Source of the DNA: Treponema sp.
GTDB taxonomy: Bacteria > Spirochaetota > Spirochaetia > Treponematales > Treponemataceae
DNA: 64,000 nucleotides
Reading direction: 5' to 3'
Assembly: GCA_016281495.1 (NCBI GenBank)
Contig: JAEEIU010000003.1
Span: 1-64,000, forward strand
Numbering within the stretch: the first letter of the stretch is position 1; every line of letters begins with the position of its first letter. Both the position numbers and the translations under genes were made by a program. Of the stretch, positions 1-63,787 are shown in pieces. The notes beneath the pieces are model-generated. The model was not told the origin of the DNA, made no database searches, and saw only the letters and a program-made list of their open reading frames with translations.

Positions 1-918
1 GGATTTGATCCTTATGAAATCTGTCAGTCAACACAGCAGATTTGTTTTGAAGATGCAAAATGGGCATATGTCCTTGGTTCTGCAATCGCAATCAAGGAAG
101 CAGAAAAGACTGGTGACAAAACCGGTTCAACAGCAGCAGCAAACATCGGTAAGGGACTTCAGGCATTCTGTCTGCCAGGTTCTGTAGCTGATGACCGCAA
201 GGTTGGTCTTGGACACGGAAACCTCGGCGCACGTCTTTTGAGCGAAGAGACACAGTGCTTTGCATTCCTCGCAGGACACGAATCATTCGCAGCCGCTGAA
301 GGTGCAATCAAGATTGCCGCAAACGCAAACAAGGTACGCAAGAACAAGCTCCGCGTTATCCTGAACGGTCTCGGAAAAGATGCCGCACAGATCATCAGCC
401 GCATCAACGGATTTACTTATGTTCAGACTGAATTCGACTACTTCAACGGAGAAGGAACAGACAAGGCCCTCAAGGTTGTTAAGGAAGTTCCTTACGGTTC
501 AAACCCAGACCGCCTCATCGTTAAGTGCTACGGTGCAGACGATGTACGCGAAGGTGTTGCAATCATGTGGCACGAGGATGTTGACGTTTCAATCACAGGA
601 AACTCCACAAACCCAACACGCTTCCAGCACCCTGTAGCCGGAACATACAAGAAGGAGCGCCTCCTTGCCGGAAAGAAATACTTCTCAGTAGCATCCGGTG
701 GTGGAACAGGCCGCACCCTGCACCCAGACAACATGGCAGCAGGTCCAGCATCATACGGCTTTACAGACACCTTAGGCCGCATGCACTCAGACGCCCAGTT
801 CGCCGGATCTTCATCAGTTCCAGCACACGTAGAAATGATGGGCTTCATGGGCATGGGCAACAACCCAATGGTAGGTTGTACAGTCGCTTGTGCCGTTGCC
901 GTAGCAGGCTCATTCTAA
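1..918 (+). CDS. GGGtGRT-family protein, 3' part (5' end outside window)
   Basis: The frame is open from base 1 to the TAA at 916-918, so about 305 C-terminal residues are visible and the start lies upstream. The segment SGGGTGRTLHPDNMAAGPAS is the signature that names the GGGtGRT protein family (PF14057). It is followed by a Gly/Met-rich stretch, MGFMGMGNNPMVGC, and the C-terminus CAVAVAGSF. The family's biochemical role is not established to my knowledge. It is often found in anaerobes and, as I recall, near Fe-S scaffold genes, but nothing here confirms that. An internal ATG-like start near 238 exists, but the reading frame is clearly coding upstream of it. The last ten codons are repeated twice downstream within a palindrome array (see 926-1253), which is most unusual. 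The family call is confident; the function is unknown. Confidence 0.85.
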   Translation, partial: GFDPYEICQSTQQICFEDAKWAYVLGSAIAIKEAEKTGDKTGSTAAANIGKGLQAFCLPGSVADDRKVGLGHGNLGARLLSEETQCFAFLAGHESFAAAEGAIKIAANANKVRKNKLRVILNGLGKDAAQIISRINGFTYVQTEFDYFNGEGTDKALKVVKEVPYGSNPDRLIVKCYGADDVREGVAIMWHEDVDVSITGNSTNPTRFQHPVAGTYKKERLLAGKKYFSVASGGGTGRTLHPDNMAAGPASYGFTDTLGRMHSDAQFAGSSSVPAHVEMMGFMGMGNNPMVGCTVACAVAVAGSF

Positions 919-1008
919 ACATAAATGCGAGTTTTACTGGTTTTTGCGTATGCAAAAATGCGAGCCTTCGCGAGCAAAGTAAAACTCGTAGAGCAACCGA
1001 AGGTTGCG

Positions 1009-1041
1009 GCCTGTGCAGTAGCTGTAGCAGGTAGCTTCTAA
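1009..1041 (+). pseudogene. First extra copy of the GGGtGRT gene's last 10 codons
   Basis: This 33-bp stretch translates to ACAVAVAGSF followed by TAA, identical in protein to the true gene end at 886-918. It differs from it at 8 nucleotides, all synonymous and including a TCA-to-AGC serine swap. It lies directly after palindrome unit 1 and has no start codon or ribosome binding site, so it is a coding relic and not a gene. Confidence 0.75.
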
Positions 1042-1137
1042 CTAAAGTTGCGAGTTTTACCGTTTTTTGCAAGGCAAAAATGCGAGCCTTCGCGAGCAAG
1101 GTAAAACTCGTTAAGCAAACCGCAAGGTTTGCGACTT

Positions 1138-1158
1138 GCTGTAGCTGGTAGCTTCTAA
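1138..1158 (+). pseudogene. Second extra copy of the GGGtGRT gene's end (AVAGSF-stop)
   Basis: Six codons plus TAA (AVAGSF) directly follow palindrome unit 2. The stretch is almost identical to the first extra copy (one base different over 21). It is closer to that copy than to the true gene end, so the two relics share a recent origin. Confidence 0.65.
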
Positions 1159-1254
1159 TCTAACATGCGAGTTTCCACGTTTTTTTGCGAAAGCAAAAAA
1201 TGCGAGCCTTCGCGAGCAAGTGGAAACTCGAAGAGCAAGCGCCAGCTTACGACT

Positions 1255-1289
1255 AACACCCCCAAATCAACATTGGGGGTGTTTTTTTT
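1255..1289 (+). terminator. Rho-independent terminator after GGGtGRT gene and palindrome array
   Basis: AACACCCCCAA pairs with TTGGGGGTGTT across a 7-base loop and is followed by eight T. It is the first strong intrinsic terminator downstream of the gene, so the palindrome array is probably transcribed as a 3' UTR. Confidence 0.9.
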
Positions 1290-1334
1290 GTCTGAAGCTT
1301 AATTAATTGTAGAAAATCAGTCGTCAGGCAGGAT

Positions 1335-2210: not shown

Positions 2211-5200
2211 TCAAACCTCGACTGTACCTTCAAAGCACAGGGTCGTATTACCGGTAAGATAGACAGTCCTTCCTGTATATTTGACATGAAGGGTGCCGCC
2301 CCTTACACGAACCGTAACATCACTGTCAACCGCACATTCACCCTTGAGCACCGCAGCCACAACCGCCGCACATGCTCCAGTTCCACATGCAGGGGTTTCT
2401 CCGTTACCCCTTTCCCAAGTACGGATCTTCAACTCAGCGGGACTAACCACACGCACAAATTCCACATTCGTTCTTTCAGGGAACATTTCATGGAACTCAA
2501 TCTGCGGACCGATTTCTTCAACCTTTTCCTTGTCCACAAATTTGCTGAATACGACACAGTGGGGATTACCCATGCTCACACAGGTTACCTGATATTCATT
2601 TCCACCAGCCACAAGCTTTTGGTCAACAACAGATTTCTGTCCCACACCAAGCAAAGTTGGAATCTGTTCCGAATAAAAAGCCGGTTCACCCATATCGACC
2701 GTAACCGAAGTGACCTTTCCATCCTGCTTGTACAAAACCAGGGACTTTACTCCAGCCTCGGTTTCTATAGTAATCCTTTCCGTAGCGTCAGTTTTGCGTC
2801 CATGCTTTTCCTGAATGCCCCGCACATTGTTGTCGTACAGGTATTTTCCCACACAACGGATTGCATTTCCGGCCATCTGACCTTCACTACCGTCCATGTT
2901 AAAGAAGCGCATCTTTGCATCGGCCACACGACTTGATTCAATCAAAACAAGTGAGTCCGCACCGATTCCTCCGTTACGCCTGTCACATAGACGCACCGCA
3001 AGACCTGCAGGATTGTTCACCACCTGATCCATGGCATTGATTACGATAAAGTCGTTTCCTGTTGAATCCATCTTGCAGAATTTGATTTTCTGCTTTTCGT
3101 CACGCAGCATGTTGATGTCCACCAGTTCAACATTCTCTGCGGAGTATTTGCTCTTAAGGCAGTTTGCAATGGCATTGGCAGTATCAATTGCAGTAAGGCA
3201 AGGTATGTCACGCTCAACAGCATGCCGCCTCATCTTTACTGAATCTGAATGAGGATCACGGCCCTTTGCAGATGTCGATATTACATAATCGATTTTTCCT
3301 GAATCAAGCAGTGTAAGAAGATTGTCATTCGGGTTTTCGTGAATCTTGTTAACAACGGTAACTTCCATTCCAAAGTCACGCAGGGTTTCCGCATTTCCCT
3401 CGGTGGCATAAAGCTTGAATCCCATGTCGTAGAATTTTCTTGCCAAAGACGGAAGCTCATAACGGTCGGTCTTACGCACGCTCAAAAGGACACCGCCAGA
3501 CCTCTTCATCCTGTAACCGGCAGCAACGAGTCCCTTAAAAATCGCCTCTTCCATTGTAGATGCCAGGCCAAGAACTTCTCCCGTAGACTTCATTTCCGGA
3601 CCAAGATGAGTGTCCACATCCATCAGTTTTTCAAAGCTGAACACTGGAACCTTTACCGCAAAATACGGAGGATTCCTGTAAAGCCCCGTACCAAAACCAA
3701 AGTCCCTGACGTGCTCACCAAGCATGGCCCTTGTTGCAAGCTCTACCATCGGCACACCGGTCACCTTGCTGATGTAAGGAACAGTTCGGCTTGAACGCGG
3801 ATTCACCTCGATGATGTAAAGGTCGTTGTTGTAAATCAAATACTGAATGTTCACCAGACCACGGGTTCCCAACGCAAGTGCCAGTTCCCTGCTCTGTGCA
3901 ATAATCTTTTCGCGTATGATGTCGTTCAAATTCCAGCTGGGGTAAACGGCAATACTGTCACCGGAATGAATTCCAGTGCGTTCAATATGTTCCATGATTC
4001 CAGGAATCAAAATGTCCTCGCCGTCACAAATCGCATCAACCTCAAGCTCGATTCCCTGCATGTACTTGTCGATTAAGACAGGATTTTCAATTCCCTGGGC
4101 AAGGATGATCTTCATGTACTCAACAATGTCCGCCTCGTTAAAGGCAATGATCATGTTCTGGCCGCCCAAAACATACGATGGCCTGAGCAAAACCGGATAT
4201 GTAATTTTTTCCGCAACGGCAAGAGCTTCTTCTGTAGTAAAGACAGTCTCTCCCTTTGGCTTTTTAATTCCAAGCGAATCACACAGGGCTTCAAAACGCT
4301 CACGGTCTTCGGCAACATCAATGGAATCCGCACTCGTTCCCAAAATCCTTATGCCCTGACTGTCCAGGAATTTTGTAAGCTTGATTGCAGTCTGTCCACC
4401 AAATGCAACCACAACACCGATGGGCTTTTCCGTTTCGATTACGTTCATCACGTCTTCGGGTGTAAGCGGTTCAAAGTACAGACGGTCGCTGGTATCAAAG
4501 TCCGTGGAAACAGTTTCGGGATTGTTGTTTATCGTAACAACATCGTATCCCAGTTTCTTAAGCGCCCTGACACACTGAACGCTCGCATAGTCAAATTCAA
4601 TTCCCTGACCGATTCTGATTGGGCCCGAGCCAAGAACAATAATAGTTCCCTTTGAGGAAGACTGCCTTTCGTCTATGAATTCCTGGGCCTCGTTTTCCTT
4701 TTCGTAGCTGGAATAAAAATACGGTGTTTCGGCATTGAACTCACCGGCGCAAGTGTCAACCATCTTGTATGACGCACAAATGTGGGCAAGCTTTTTCTGA
4801 GCGCTAAGTTCCCTTGCAAGTATGGCATCCTTAAGTTCACCGGTACCACCCGTTATCTTTTTACCGCATAGGCGTTCAATCACTTTATCCGGATAACCGT
4901 TTTTCTTGGCCTGAACATACAGGTCCCAGTCAAGTTCACCCTGTCCATCCTTTATCCTTGCAAAGTTCTTTTCCATCTCCGCAAGATTATTCAAATGATA
5001 GAGGAACCATTCGTCTATTTTTGTCACGGCATGAATTTCGCTTACAGTCATTATGCCGCGCTTTAATGCCTGGAAAATGGCAAACAGCCTCTGGTCGGTA
5101 CATTCACCTACACGGTGCTTTATGTCCTCTGCACTTTCTTCTTCAAATACAGGAAGGTTCAGGGAGTCAACACCAATCTCTGCACCACGGACGGCCTTCA

Positions 5201-6383
5201 TCATCGCCATCTCAAAACTGTGGCCGATTGCCATGACTTCTCCGGTGGCCTTCATCTGGGTACCAAGATTCCTCTTTGCGTAAACGAATTTGTCAAAGGG
5301 GAACTTGGGCATCTTTACGACGACATAATCAAGGACCGGCTCAAAACATGCGGAAGTCTTTTTGGTAACCGCGTTGGGTATTTCATCCAGCGTATAACCG
5401 ATTGATATCAGTGTAGCAACTTTGGCTATCGGATAACCTGTGGCCTTGGATGCCAGAGCAGAAGAACGCGATACCCTGGGGTTTACTTCGATTACGGCAT
5501 AGTCAAAGCTGTCCGGGTTAAGTGCAAACTGACAGTTACATCCACCCTCCATTCCAAGCGAATTGATTATGTTCAATGCCGAAGAACGCAGCATCTGGTA
5601 TTCCTTGTCGCTCAAGGTCACAGCTGGGGCAATGACAATCGAATCACCTGTATGCACGCCAACGGGGTCAAAGTTTTCCATGGAACATACGGTAAGCACA
5701 TTTCCCGCATGGTCACGCATAACCTCAAACTCAATTTCCTTCCATCCGCTGATGCATTTTTCAACCAGAATCTGATGTATTGGAGAACGGTGCAATCCAT
5801 TTTGTGCAATTTCTTCAAGTTCCGCATGGTCATTTGCAATTCCACCGCCAGTACCGCCAAGAGTAAAGGCAGGACGCACGATTACCGGGTAACCGATTTC
5901 ATTATCTGCAAACGCCAGGGCCGCCTCCAGTGTGGTAACAACTTTTGATGGAATGCACTTTTCGCCAATGGACTCCATAGTGTCCTTAAAGAGCTGACGG
6001 TCCTCCGCCTTGTCTATGGTCTCCGGTTTTGCACCCAAAAGCTTGACCCCATGAGAATCAAGGAAACCGCTTTTTGCAAGCTCCATGCACAAAGTAAGTC
6101 CAGTCTGTCCGCCAAGAGAAGACAAAATGCTGTCTGGCTTTTCCTTTTCTATTATACGTTCTATAGTTTCCTGAATCAGCGGTTCAATATAAATCGCATC
6201 CGCCATGGAATTGTCCGTCATGAGTGTGGCCGGGTTTGAGTTTACAAGCACGACTTCAAGCCCCTGCTCCTTAAGCGCCTTGCACGCCTGACTTCCTGCA
6301 TAATCAAATTCCGCCGCCTGACCGATTACTATTGGTCCGCTTCCGATAACCATTACTTTGTGAATGTCTTTATTCAAAGGCAT
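2211..6383 (-). CDS. carB-dapF: Carbamoyl-phosphate synthase large subunit fused to diaminopimelate epimerase
   Basis: One uninterrupted frame of 1390 residues. Residues 1 to about 1090 are a full-length CarB: two ATP-grasp halves, GSGPIVIGQAAEFDYAG near the N-terminus and GSGPIRIGQGIEFDYASVQ in the middle, plus the C-terminal MGS-like allosteric domain. Residues from about 1098 on are a complete DapF (KMDSTGNDFIVI to the C-terminus). CarB makes carbamoyl phosphate for arginine and pyrimidines; DapF converts LL- to meso-diaminopimelate for lysine. I chose the ATG at 6383 because it has an AAGGAG site and matches the CarB N-terminus; the longer frame upstream runs through a hairpin leader. No carA is nearby. 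In the DapF part the first catalytic Cys of the MCGNG motif is Ala (MAGNAIRC), while the second (ETPACGTGACA) is kept. The fusion is clear from sequence; activity of the epimerase half is uncertain. Confidence 0.92.
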   Translation of the reverse strand: MPLNKDIHKVMVIGSGPIVIGQAAEFDYAGSQACKALKEQGLEVVLVNSNPATLMTDNSMADAIYIEPLIQETIERIIEKEKPDSILSSLGGQTGLTLCMELAKSGFLDSHGVKLLGAKPETIDKAEDRQLFKDTMESIGEKCIPSKVVTTLEAALAFADNEIGYPVIVRPAFTLGGTGGGIANDHAELEEIAQNGLHRSPIHQILVEKCISGWKEIEFEVMRDHAGNVLTVCSMENFDPVGVHTGDSIVIAPAVTLSDKEYQMLRSSALNIINSLGMEGGCNCQFALNPDSFDYAVIEVNPRVSRSSALASKATGYPIAKVATLISIGYTLDEIPNAVTKKTSACFEPVLDYVVVKMPKFPFDKFVYAKRNLGTQMKATGEVMAIGHSFEMAMMKAVRGAEIGVDSLNLPVFEEESAEDIKHRVGECTDQRLFAIFQALKRGIMTVSEIHAVTKIDEWFLYHLNNLAEMEKNFARIKDGQGELDWDLYVQAKKNGYPDKVIERLCGKKITGGTGELKDAILARELSAQKKLAHICASYKMVDTCAGEFNAETPYFYSSYEKENEAQEFIDERQSSSKGTIIVLGSGPIRIGQGIEFDYASVQCVRALKKLGYDVVTINNNPETVSTDFDTSDRLYFEPLTPEDVMNVIETEKPIGVVVAFGGQTAIKLTKFLDSQGIRILGTSADSIDVAEDRERFEALCDSLGIKKPKGETVFTTEEALAVAEKITYPVLLRPSYVLGGQNMIIAFNEADIVEYMKIILAQGIENPVLIDKYMQGIELEVDAICDGEDILIPGIMEHIERTGIHSGDSIAVYPSWNLNDIIREKIIAQSRELALALGTRGLVNIQYLIYNNDLYIIEVNPRSSRTVPYISKVTGVPMVELATRAMLGEHVRDFGFGTGLYRNPPYFAVKVPVFSFEKLMDVDTHLGPEMKSTGEVLGLASTMEEAIFKGLVAAGYRMKRSGGVLLSVRKTDRYELPSLARKFYDMGFKLYATEGNAETLRDFGMEVTVVNKIHENPNDNLLTLLDSGKIDYVISTSAKGRDPHSDSVKMRRHAVERDIPCLTAIDTANAIANCLKSKYSAENVELVDINMLRDEKQKIKFCKMDSTGNDFIVINAMDQVVNNPAGLAVRLCDRRNGGIGADSLVLIESSRVADAKMRFFNMDGSEGQMAGNAIRCVGKYLYDNNVRGIQEKHGRKTDATERITIETEAGVKSLVLYKQDGKVTSVTVDMGEPAFYSEQIPTLLGVGQKSVVDQKLVAGGNEYQVTCVSMGNPHCVVFSKFVDKEKVEEIGPQIEFHEMFPERTNVEFVRVVSPAELKIRTWERGNGETPACGTGACAAVVAAVLKGECAVDSDVTVRVRGGTLHVKYTGRTVYLTGNTTLCFEGTVEV

Positions 6384-6405
6384 CGAGTTCTCCTTGTGTC
6401 CGGGC

Positions 6406-6440
6406 AAAAAAAAGGAGACACCGGCCCTACCGCTGTCCCC
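6406..6440 (-). terminator. Hairpin plus T-run in the carB-dapF leader (attenuator or upstream terminator)
   Basis: On the minus strand GGGGACA pairs with TGTCTCC (one G-U) across a 13-base loop, followed by eight T, ending about 22 bases before the carB ATG. It could terminate the toxin-antitoxin operon upstream (stop at 6546) or act as an attenuator for carB. The second carB also has such a hairpin, with no upstream gene to terminate, which favours attenuation. Confidence 0.6.
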
Positions 6441-6545
6441 TATGACACACAAGAAATATATCAAAATTTGATGTTTTTGTAAATAGTATTCTTTTTTAAC
6501 TCAGGATTTGATATTGGGAAATGGCATTTTGGTGGCTATTCAAAA

Positions 6546-62158: not shown

Positions 62159-63643
62159 ATGAAAACAGTTGCAGGAATTGACCTTGGTACCCAGAGTATG
62201 AAGGTTGTCATTTATGATTACGAGAAAAAGGAAATTATCGAAAAGGCAAGCTGCCCCATGGAATTGATTTCGGAGGCAGACGGTACCCGCGAACAGAAGA
62301 CAGAATGGTTCGACAAGGGACTTGAAGTCTGCTTTGGAAAGCTTTCGGCAGAAAACAAGGCCACCATCGAAGCAATTGGCGTTTCCGGTCAGCAGCATGG
62401 TTTTGTTCCGCTCGACAAGGACGGAAAGGCTTTGTACAACATCAAGCTTTGGTGCGATACGGCAACAACAGAACAGTGCGCCTACATCACAAAAGAGGCA
62501 GGCGGAGACAAGAAGGTTGTAGAACTCCTTGGCAATCTGATGCTCCCTGGCTTTACCGCTCCAAAAATCCTCTGGCTCAAGAACAACAAGCCGGATGCCT
62601 TTGCGGCCCTTCATTACATCATGCTTCCACACGATTACCTGAACTGGAAGCTCACTGGCGAATATGTCATGGAATACGGAGATGCGTCTGGTACTGCACT
62701 TTTTGATTCAGCCAAACGCTGCTGGTCAAAGCCCATCTGTGACATCATCGATCCAAAACTCTTTGGCCTTCTTCCAAAACTGATTGAACCAAGCGCTCCT
62801 GCGGGAAAAGTTTCTGCAGAGGCAGCTTCCGCTTATGGAATTCCTGCTGGCATTCCTGTTTCTGCTGGTGGCGGCGACAACATGATGGGTGCCGTCGGAA
62901 CCGGTACTGTTGCAGACGGATTCCTTACAATGTCCATGGGAACATCAGGTACACTCTACGGATACAGTGACAAGCCAATCAACGATCCGGAAAACGGTTT
63001 GAGCGGATTCTGCTCTTCAACCGGAGGATGGCTCCCACTCCTCTGTACAATGAACTGTACTGTTGCAACTGAATTTGTAAGGGGCCTCTTTGAGCTTGAC
63101 GTAAAGGATCTGGACAAGGAAGCGTCCAAGGCTCCATGTGGAAGTGAGGGAGTTATCGTTCTTCCATTCTTCAACGGAGAAAGGACACCAAACCTGCCAA
63201 ACGGAAGGGCAAGCATTACAGGCCTTACCACCGCCAATACCAACAGGGCCAACATTGCCCGTGCCTCTCTTGAATCTGCCGTATTTGCAATGCGCGGAGG
63301 TCTTGATGCATTCCGCAAGCTTGGATTCAAGCCACGTGAAATCCGCCTGATTGGTGGAGGTTCAAAATCACCGCTCTGGAGGCAGATTGCAGCCGACATC
63401 ATGAACCTGCCGATCCGCATTCCAGCACTGGACGAAGCAGCCGCCCTTGGTGGAGCTGTTCAGGCCCTGTGGTGCCTCAAGAACATGAACGGAAAATGTG
63501 ACATTGCGGAATTGTGCGCAGAACACATCACTCTTGACACCTCAAAGAGTGCCGACCCGATTCCAGAAAATGTTAAGGCATATAACACGGCTTATGAAGA
63601 GTACAACAAAGTCCTTGAAGCTGTAAAACCATTGTATGAGTAG
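62159..63643 (+). CDS. xylB: Xylulokinase
   Basis: 494 residues of the FGGY sugar kinase family: GIDLGTQSMKVVIYD (phosphate 1 loop), SGQQHGFVPLD (substrate loop), GGGDNMMGAVGTG with the catalytic Asp, and LIGGGSKSPLWRQIAADI for nucleotide binding. It phosphorylates D-xylulose for the pentose phosphate pathway. A CAGGAG site precedes the ATG. Xylose isomerase is not in the window. The GH43 enzyme at 7436 may supply xylose. Its last 17 codons recur as a diverged copy 93 bp downstream. Confidence 0.92.
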   Translation: MKTVAGIDLGTQSMKVVIYDYEKKEIIEKASCPMELISEADGTREQKTEWFDKGLEVCFGKLSAENKATIEAIGVSGQQHGFVPLDKDGKALYNIKLWCDTATTEQCAYITKEAGGDKKVVELLGNLMLPGFTAPKILWLKNNKPDAFAALHYIMLPHDYLNWKLTGEYVMEYGDASGTALFDSAKRCWSKPICDIIDPKLFGLLPKLIEPSAPAGKVSAEAASAYGIPAGIPVSAGGGDNMMGAVGTGTVADGFLTMSMGTSGTLYGYSDKPINDPENGLSGFCSSTGGWLPLLCTMNCTVATEFVRGLFELDVKDLDKEASKAPCGSEGVIVLPFFNGERTPNLPNGRASITGLTTANTNRANIARASLESAVFAMRGGLDAFRKLGFKPREIRLIGGGSKSPLWRQIAADIMNLPIRIPALDEAAALGGAVQALWCLKNMNGKCDIAELCAEHITLDTSKSADPIPENVKAYNTAYEEYNKVLEAVKPLYE

Positions 63644-63736
63644 ACTCGACAAGGCTTATGTCGGGTTTACAATTTATTTAAAACCCGACAAACGGCTGAG
63701 TCAAGGCCTTGAGCGTAAGCGTGCCTTGACCAGACG
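63644..63736. repeat. Palindromic element between xylB and a copy of its 3' end
   Basis: Two hairpins: TGTCGGGTTT (63659-63668) with AAACCCGACA (63681-63690), and GTCAAGGC (63700-63707) with GCCTTGAC (63723-63730). The inner part GAGCGTAAGCG recalls GCGAGCCTTCGCGAGC in the array at 926-1253, though overall sequence differs. Confidence 0.75.
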
Positions 63737-63787
63737 TATGATGAGTACAACAAAGTCCTGGCTCAGGTTACACCTCTTTACGTGTAA
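63737..63787 (+). pseudogene. Diverged copy of the last 17 codons of xylB
   Basis: Translates YDEYNKVLAQVTPLYV-stop against YEEYNKVLEAVKPLYE-stop at the true end (63593-63643); both are exactly 51 bases. Changes look like those between xylB homologs, not random decay. A GGTTACAC/GTGTAACC hairpin overlaps its stop. No start codon. Confidence 0.75.

Follow-up and report, generated by a model that had tools for sequence, protein, structure and literature searches.

The stretch of DNA analysed herein (the window) comprises the first 64,000 nucleotides of contig JAEEIU010000003.1 from a 3.2-Mb Treponema genome (G000), and it opens within a gene for a GGGtGRT protein whose stop codon is followed by a tandem array, in which the series of gene end, 8-nt spacer and palindrome occurs three times (Table 1). 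The distance from stop codon to palindrome start is exactly 8 nt for all three units, and 8 nt also separates the stop from the motif GCGAG in nearly all units of this palindrome type (type A) that show the tandem layout. The intact, or live, gene end and relic 1 differ at eight bases, all of them synonymous and including one serine codon (TCA versus AGC), and the third palindrome leads into a terminator-like hairpin with no relic behind it. The initial annotation had described the 3' end of this gene as copied twice, each copy behind a palindrome; both relics were confirmed, the palindromes numbering three. A 25-nt palindrome core occurs three times within three mismatches (0 expected from shuffles), all three units fold at z -4.5 to -6.0 relative to shuffled sequence, and the gene-end copy score of 50 exceeds the maximum of 39 in a null of mismatched genes, so that chance is excluded for the window array. 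We read the live end here as the most recently grafted end of the array.

Table 1. Coordinates of the two copied gene ends and their palindromes in the window.
Feature	Position	Strand	Remarks
GGGtGRT protein gene	1..918	+	PF14057, E 1.3e-170; 5' part cut off by window edge
Live gene end, ACAVAVAGSF-stop	886..918	+	synonymous differences vs relic 1 and vs G151
8-nt spacer ahead of palindrome 1	919..926	+	
Palindrome unit P1, three-way junction and trailing hairpin	927..1011	+	R1 match 9.0e-19; fold z -6.0
Relic gene end 1, ACAVAVAGSF-stop	1009..1041	+	
8-nt spacer	1042..1049	+	
Palindrome unit P2	1050..1136	+	R1 match 8.4e-18; fold z -5.6
Relic gene end 2, AVAGSF-stop	1138..1158	+	5' side truncated; preceding codon is the junction
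8-nt spacer TCTAACAT	1159..1166	+	same letters as spacer behind live end in G151
Palindrome unit P3	1167..1254	+	R1 match 7.7e-19; outer stem altered on both sides (TTTCCAC/GTGGAAA), covariation
Terminator-like hairpin with T run, past array	1257..1290	+	read from sequence
Xylulokinase gene (xylB), live end ..EAVKPLYE-stop	62159..63643	+	TIGR01312 4.4e-186; body in LYV-ending clade
Type-D palindrome	63691..63738	+	sequence unrelated to P1-P3; also in G009, G002, G015, G169, G105
Relic of native xylulokinase end, YDEYNKVLAQVTPLYV-stop	63737..63787	+	from palindrome 3' end; ending as in insert-free relatives

The type-A palindrome spans ~85 nt and consists of an outer stem, a T-rich hairpin and a hairpin TGCGAGCCTTCGCGAGCA, forming a three-way junction, plus a trailing hairpin, and its stems covary, with both sides changed in 9 of 27 predicted pairs across 22 genomic copies. 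A covariance model built from these copies of the window palindrome type found 25 copies in the genome, and 26 of 59 related genomes, all of the same genus, contain the palindrome as well; in a phylum-wide sample one of 103 genera was positive, with no copies in genera other than its own. Exact cores among GTDB contigs came only from Treponema or Spirochaetaceae assemblies, several labelled rumen, and no Rfam model matched the palindrome up to E = 1. A phage origin was considered and rejected, IMG/VR yielding only two chance-like core matches, without the palindrome. Six of the 25 palindromes lie within, or <260 nt from, one of 11 PD-(D/E)XK (PF12784) genes, where ~0.1 would be expected by our own estimate.

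Type-A and related palindromes also occur in other settings. On contigs C8, C23, C31 and C36 of G000 (L002, L004, L005, L006, L013), copies share >100 nt of similar upstream flank, and some of these precede transposase-like genes of the PD-(D/E)XK kind, which looks like a joint duplication of palindrome and promoter region. On the reverse strand of DGGQ01000034.1 (L182; Treponema UBA3870, ~4400-5450), related palindromes form a tandem intergenic array at ~125-bp intervals, in which the spacer CACCACCAAAATCCTATCATTCCAAACAAATTCC is conserved and gene ends are lacking. Intergenic pairs without a gene end are found, further, at G000:C14:29921-30106 and the orthologous sites of G009 (L108) and G151 (L175); G000 and G009 have two similar palindromes there and G151 a pair of other composition, which makes this site useful for the study of palindrome turnover where no gene end is involved.

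Copied GGGtGRT ends are a genus-wide pattern and no local oddity. A degenerate AVAGSF-stop pattern, scanned over 200 genomes of the same genus, was present in 109, at least 35 of which carry clustered end motifs (2-4 copies within ~300 bp). Arrays reach five units at this gene, and related genomes hold 0, 1, 2, 3 and 5 units, in line with the expectation of the initial annotation that unit number would vary among relatives; the opposite outcome, a fixed array everywhere with no similar loci, was looked for in related genomes and not found. Its further expectation of similar loci elsewhere was borne out with the same and with other palindromes. Specifically, three palindrome types besides type A occupy such junctions: types B and C, usually with their own terminator-like hairpin, and type D, found at another gene. 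About eight further genes are affected, among them ilvD, ilvC, xylB, ligA, cysE, a glutamate-synthase-type gene and the genes for an O-acetylhomoserine sulfhydrylase and an FAD-dependent protein, as is a tRNA-Met gene. A palindrome-independent survey of 461 kb of the genome found a copied end in 3 of 393 ORFs, namely those of the GGGtGRT protein, an Rpn-like protein and the window xylulokinase. At the tRNA-Met locus (L112, G009:C12), the copy across the palindrome takes in the gene together with the region upstream of it, and the D arms look intact in both copies.

Most of the genomes are metagenome assemblies, in which strain variants of one locus might have been concatenated. Such an artefact is scarcely credible as the source of the arrays, given that dozens of independent assemblies agree in layout and spacer length while each keeps distinct native downstream sequence, and that a unit is also present in G222 (two contigs, 99% complete).

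Which of two ends is the newcomer can be read at xylB. The gene ends in ..QVAPLYV in insert-free relatives; in G000, G009 and G002, a live end ..AVKPLYE or ..AVAPLYE is followed by the type-D palindrome and then by a relic ..QVTPLYV or ..QVAPLYV. The gene-body tree groups xylB of all three genomes within the LYV-ending clade (95/99 support) and separates G002 from G000 and G009. Since both the bodies and the relic are of the LYV type, it is the relic that is native, and the live end represents another allele, brought in with the palindrome. Thus, the copied ends of the initial annotation stand, and their order has to be changed, the live end being the newcomer and the relics the older ends. 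The xylB of G169, which ends in ..DAVKPLYE followed by type D, may be close to a donor type. Downstream of it (L317, G169:C155), the letters TACGAATAA behind type D may correspond to the final two codons plus stop of an LYE-type end, and hence may represent a 9-nt relic; since G169 possibly carries a relic of its own, xylB does not offer a direct view of an illegitimate first join.

The piece that differs is short. Among close pairs of GGGtGRT genes, the fraction of differing fourfold sites is 0.54-0.58 over the last 12 codons and 0.39 over codons 13-18, against a body average of ~0.17, these and the following pairwise figures being non-independent. Specifically, G000 and G151 combine near-identical bodies (0.05) with saturated ends (0.67), G083 and G084 show no end excess, and the divergence across close pairs looks episodic. 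An end excess is also found between genomes that now have neither relic nor unit, so that the excess alone is no proof of a unit event; it fits a loss of units there without proving it. At xylB, control pairs without a unit have no excess (0.23 at the end versus 0.25-0.28), whereas pairs in which one partner carries a unit reach 0.60 at the end (20 sites, five pairs), with amino-acid differences of 0.23-0.25 in the last 24 codons and 0.00-0.03 elsewhere. The divergence is restricted to the last ~16 codons. A unique conserved anchor beside the gene end was tried as the cause of a hot spot and rejected, as the stretch 46-90 nt ahead of the end, although well conserved (identity 0.88-0.91), is surpassed elsewhere in the gene.

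Units vary in copy number, and blocks of them move between species. First, G076 and G096 share a common block that runs from ~45-90 nt before the stop through the UTR and a type-C palindrome into the 5' part of the relic; the gene body upstream is G134-like in G076 and G024-like in G096, the two sequences part inside the relic and continue into different downstream DNA, and the points of the two switches do not coincide within the end repeat. Second, G068, G105 and G035 have 0, 1 and 2 relics, respectively, and the last relic in both G105 and G035 is the G068 end with its downstream DNA. Third, G151 matches G000 at 98% over the 162 nt of gene body that are available; its live unit resembles the last unit of G000 (relic 2 end, spacer TCTAACAT, P3), and its relic 1 the live end of G000. 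In each of these sets, old 3' parts lie downstream and the newest lies beside the gene. The initial annotation had envisaged an element that inserts by itself, and what is seen instead is the movement of blocks whose crossovers fall in the homologous gene-end sequence.

Tandem arrays would also arise by duplication within one genome or by slippage at the palindrome, without any foreign end being brought in, and a pair of units has indeed been duplicated in G163. We nevertheless consider this account highly improbable: ends diverge far more than bodies in the same genomes, several palindrome subfamilies occur in one array (the five units of G187, L187, RUG12833, have distinct subfamilies), and the xylB ends belong to another allele class. 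Internal duplication is contradicted as the sole process and may have an additional role. A unit end set by the mRNA 3' end, in a reverse-transcription-like process, was also considered on account of terminators joined to a relic in G035, G073 and G139; it was rejected, palindrome deletion being the better explanation for G035 and G073.

The relics have changed in the manner of coding sequence. In 45 live/relic pairs, 269 synonymous differences stand against 32 nonsynonymous ones, where 72% nonsynonymous would be expected at random; outside the search pattern the counts are 95 and 32, and several of the nonsynonymous codons lie beyond the true junction. The inference of the initial annotation that the copies had been under selection before their displacement thus agrees with our results, the coding signature being there since the relics were, or derive from, functional gene ends. 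G222, G182 and G021 have an orthologous unit in common, with differences at 0-2 of 89 positions in the palindrome, 16-26 of 600 in the gene body, 5-6 of 48 in the live end and 4-7 of 48 in the relic; the relic changes all fall on third positions. Drift does not fit a pattern of third-position changes only, and exchange with the live ends of other genomes would.

These changes bear on whether the palindromes transpose in the manner of a MITE, with a long (25-35 bp) target-site duplication laid over the gene end that subsequently drifts. The palindromes are a dispersed family (25 copies in the genome), and repeats of suitable length exist, a perfect one of 26 nt at ilvD (L146) and a near-perfect one of 35 nt at the FAD-dependent gene (L023). 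A strong direct repeat spans ~20 of 92 type-A copies, most of these being gene ends, and at most repeat-flanked copies the downstream repeat starts directly at the palindrome 3' end. However, ~70 of the 92 copies have no flanking direct repeat, the post-stop sequence differs between the ilvD copies, and the two ends at xylB, the O-acetylhomoserine sulfhydrylase gene and ligA differ as orthologues do. Plain target-site duplication followed by drift is ruled out by the third-position changes in relics and the lack of repeats at most copies, and MITE-like transposition overall appears quite improbable to us. Self-insertion, as proposed in the initial annotation, finds no support in the copies without repeats, nor in the genome, from which Y1/REP transposases are absent (no PF01797 matches, with control genomes positive).

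We favor, with a probability of roughly 0.6, the interpretation that the arrays of these rumen and gut Treponema are stacks of displaced ends, in which a foreign gene end and its 3'UTR palindrome have recombined into the gene and pushed the resident end downstream. The incoming piece would comprise the last ~12-24 codons, the 3'UTR and the structured palindrome of another lineage, joined on the left within conserved coding sequence and on the right, at the palindrome 3' end, within the resident gene's own last codons. The gene would then use the imported end while the old one stays downstream as a relic, and repeated events would build a stack with the newest end beside the gene. Once at least two end copies are present, recombination between them, within and between genomes, could move, delete and reorder units and convert relics, and because of such conversion the relics would look like fresh coding sequence. 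We infer that the first join at the palindrome 3' base was illegitimate (non-homologous), given that this is where relics begin at many genes unrelated to one another, and behind palindromes that are likewise unrelated. The palindrome would presumably aid this join by being cut, or by stalling DNA or its replication. At many loci the relic does begin at the palindrome end, but the switch lies inside the relic in G096 and G076. Further, the left boundary (~16-18 codons) is sharper than usual recombination tracts, which counts against a recombination reading, as does the upstream block at 46-90 nt, whose conservation is exceeded in other parts of the gene.

Such a short tract and sharp boundary leave room for a dedicated, cassette-like process. 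One form would be a mobile unit of palindrome plus ~45-nt gene end, moving as a cassette or circle through a site-specific recombinase that uses the gene end as attachment site. The sharp ~16-codon tract, a palindrome-relic junction that is fixed across loci, the position of the newest unit closest to the gene and the genus-wide hot spot would all suit it. Such a unit seems unlikely to us, however, as the pattern extends to about eight other genes and to palindromes of unrelated type, the G096 and G076 switches occupy differing positions of the end repeat, and no end-copy pair encloses a larger element on one contig among the matches listed from the 200 genomes, whose contigs are short. The same diversity argues against the single element family of the initial annotation, since unrelated palindrome types occupy the identical junction. 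Rpn (PD-(D/E)XK) nucleases raise RecA-independent recombination in E. coli (PMC5350276, PMC10327210), and in the Treponema genome they are linked to the palindromes by position (the six of 25 above), although they are not known to act on them. It is conceivable, if decidedly unlikely, that the palindromes form a dedicated end-grafting system in which an enzyme, possibly Rpn-like, acts at the 3' base and grafts units of gene end plus palindrome from other cells onto homologous genes; in that case, the 3' ends of core genes would be freely exchanged, stacked cassettes across a bacterial genus.

Some arrays hold inverted gene-end segments, which match the codons of their own live gene to a degree reached in 0 of 20,000 permutations. 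With the covariation of the palindrome stems, this could mean that the repeats are kept as RNA structure, an inverted gene-end copy pairing with the live end or a relic to control the mRNA 3' end. That explanation is very unlikely in our view: the inverted copy is absent from the window array and from G187, whole-block transfer would give the same match, and synonymous change in the unpaired part of the relic is left unexplained. Type-C blocks downstream of the GGGtGRT gene (G096, G076, G168, G066 and G192) contain a 21-nt inverted copy of the gene end, exact in G168, G096 and G076 and otherwise with one change, which could serve as an mRNA 3'-end structure.

Stacks of displaced ends can be compared with several known systems. 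Phages and islands that integrate into the 3' end of a gene (icd, tRNA genes) restore that end by means of their integrases; there, too, an incoming end with synonymous differences replaces the resident one and leaves a relic. The Treponema units, in contrast, are ~120-280 bp long, contain no integrase or cargo, and involve many genes and several unrelated palindromes. REP/REPIN sequences, with their Y1/RAYT transposases, are likewise short structured palindromes outside genes and often near gene 3' ends, whereas the Treponema units are larger, form a three-way junction and reside in a genome without a Y1 transposase. MITEs, Correia elements, RUP and ERIC are dispersed palindromic elements of ~100 nt; unlike them, the Treponema palindromes have no general target duplication, have gene ends copied across them, and are without a related transposase in searches for PF01797 and PF12784.

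The nearest known system is that of the displaced 3'-end arrays of Rhs and T6SS loci. Orphan 3'-end/immunity arrays at these loci were formed by sequential displacement, for which homology-facilitated illegitimate recombination has been proposed, with upstream homology as the anchor and an illegitimate join retaining the displaced part (Kirchberger et al. 2017, PMC5361080). As in the Treponema stacks, the old 3' part gives way to a new one, displaced parts accumulate downstream in an order that keeps the newest beside the gene, and the arrays spread by homologous recombination (PMC5361080). The combination of a resident upstream part with a foreign 3' part is likewise found here, in the xylB tree, the fourfold-site profile and the xylB control pairs. 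The Treponema genes differ, however, in being housekeeping genes with no toxin/immunity function, in a displaced piece of 7-24 codons and in a structured palindrome that marks the junction. Nor do the displaced pieces offer an alternative function, as the peptide encoded by a relic equals that of the live end or closely resembles it.

Displaced-end arrays are known from toxin loci, where they have been explained by selection for new weapons. In housekeeping genes with the same architecture, the exchange of pieces that often leave the amino acids unchanged makes the process visible without functional selection on its outcome. The stacks would then record, in order, very short horizontal exchanges across the genus, in which the last 16 codons of a gene can differ in history from the rest. 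Trees and strain typing can be led astray by gene ends, and a role for 3'UTR palindromes in delimiting recombination becomes open to test.

Elsewhere in the window, positions 2211-6464 on the reverse strand hold a single frame of 1417 amino acids in which carbamoyl-phosphate synthase large subunit (TIGR01369) and diaminopimelate epimerase (TIGR00652) both occur in full and in frame, which represents either an unusual fusion of two enzymes or two genes joined in sequencing.
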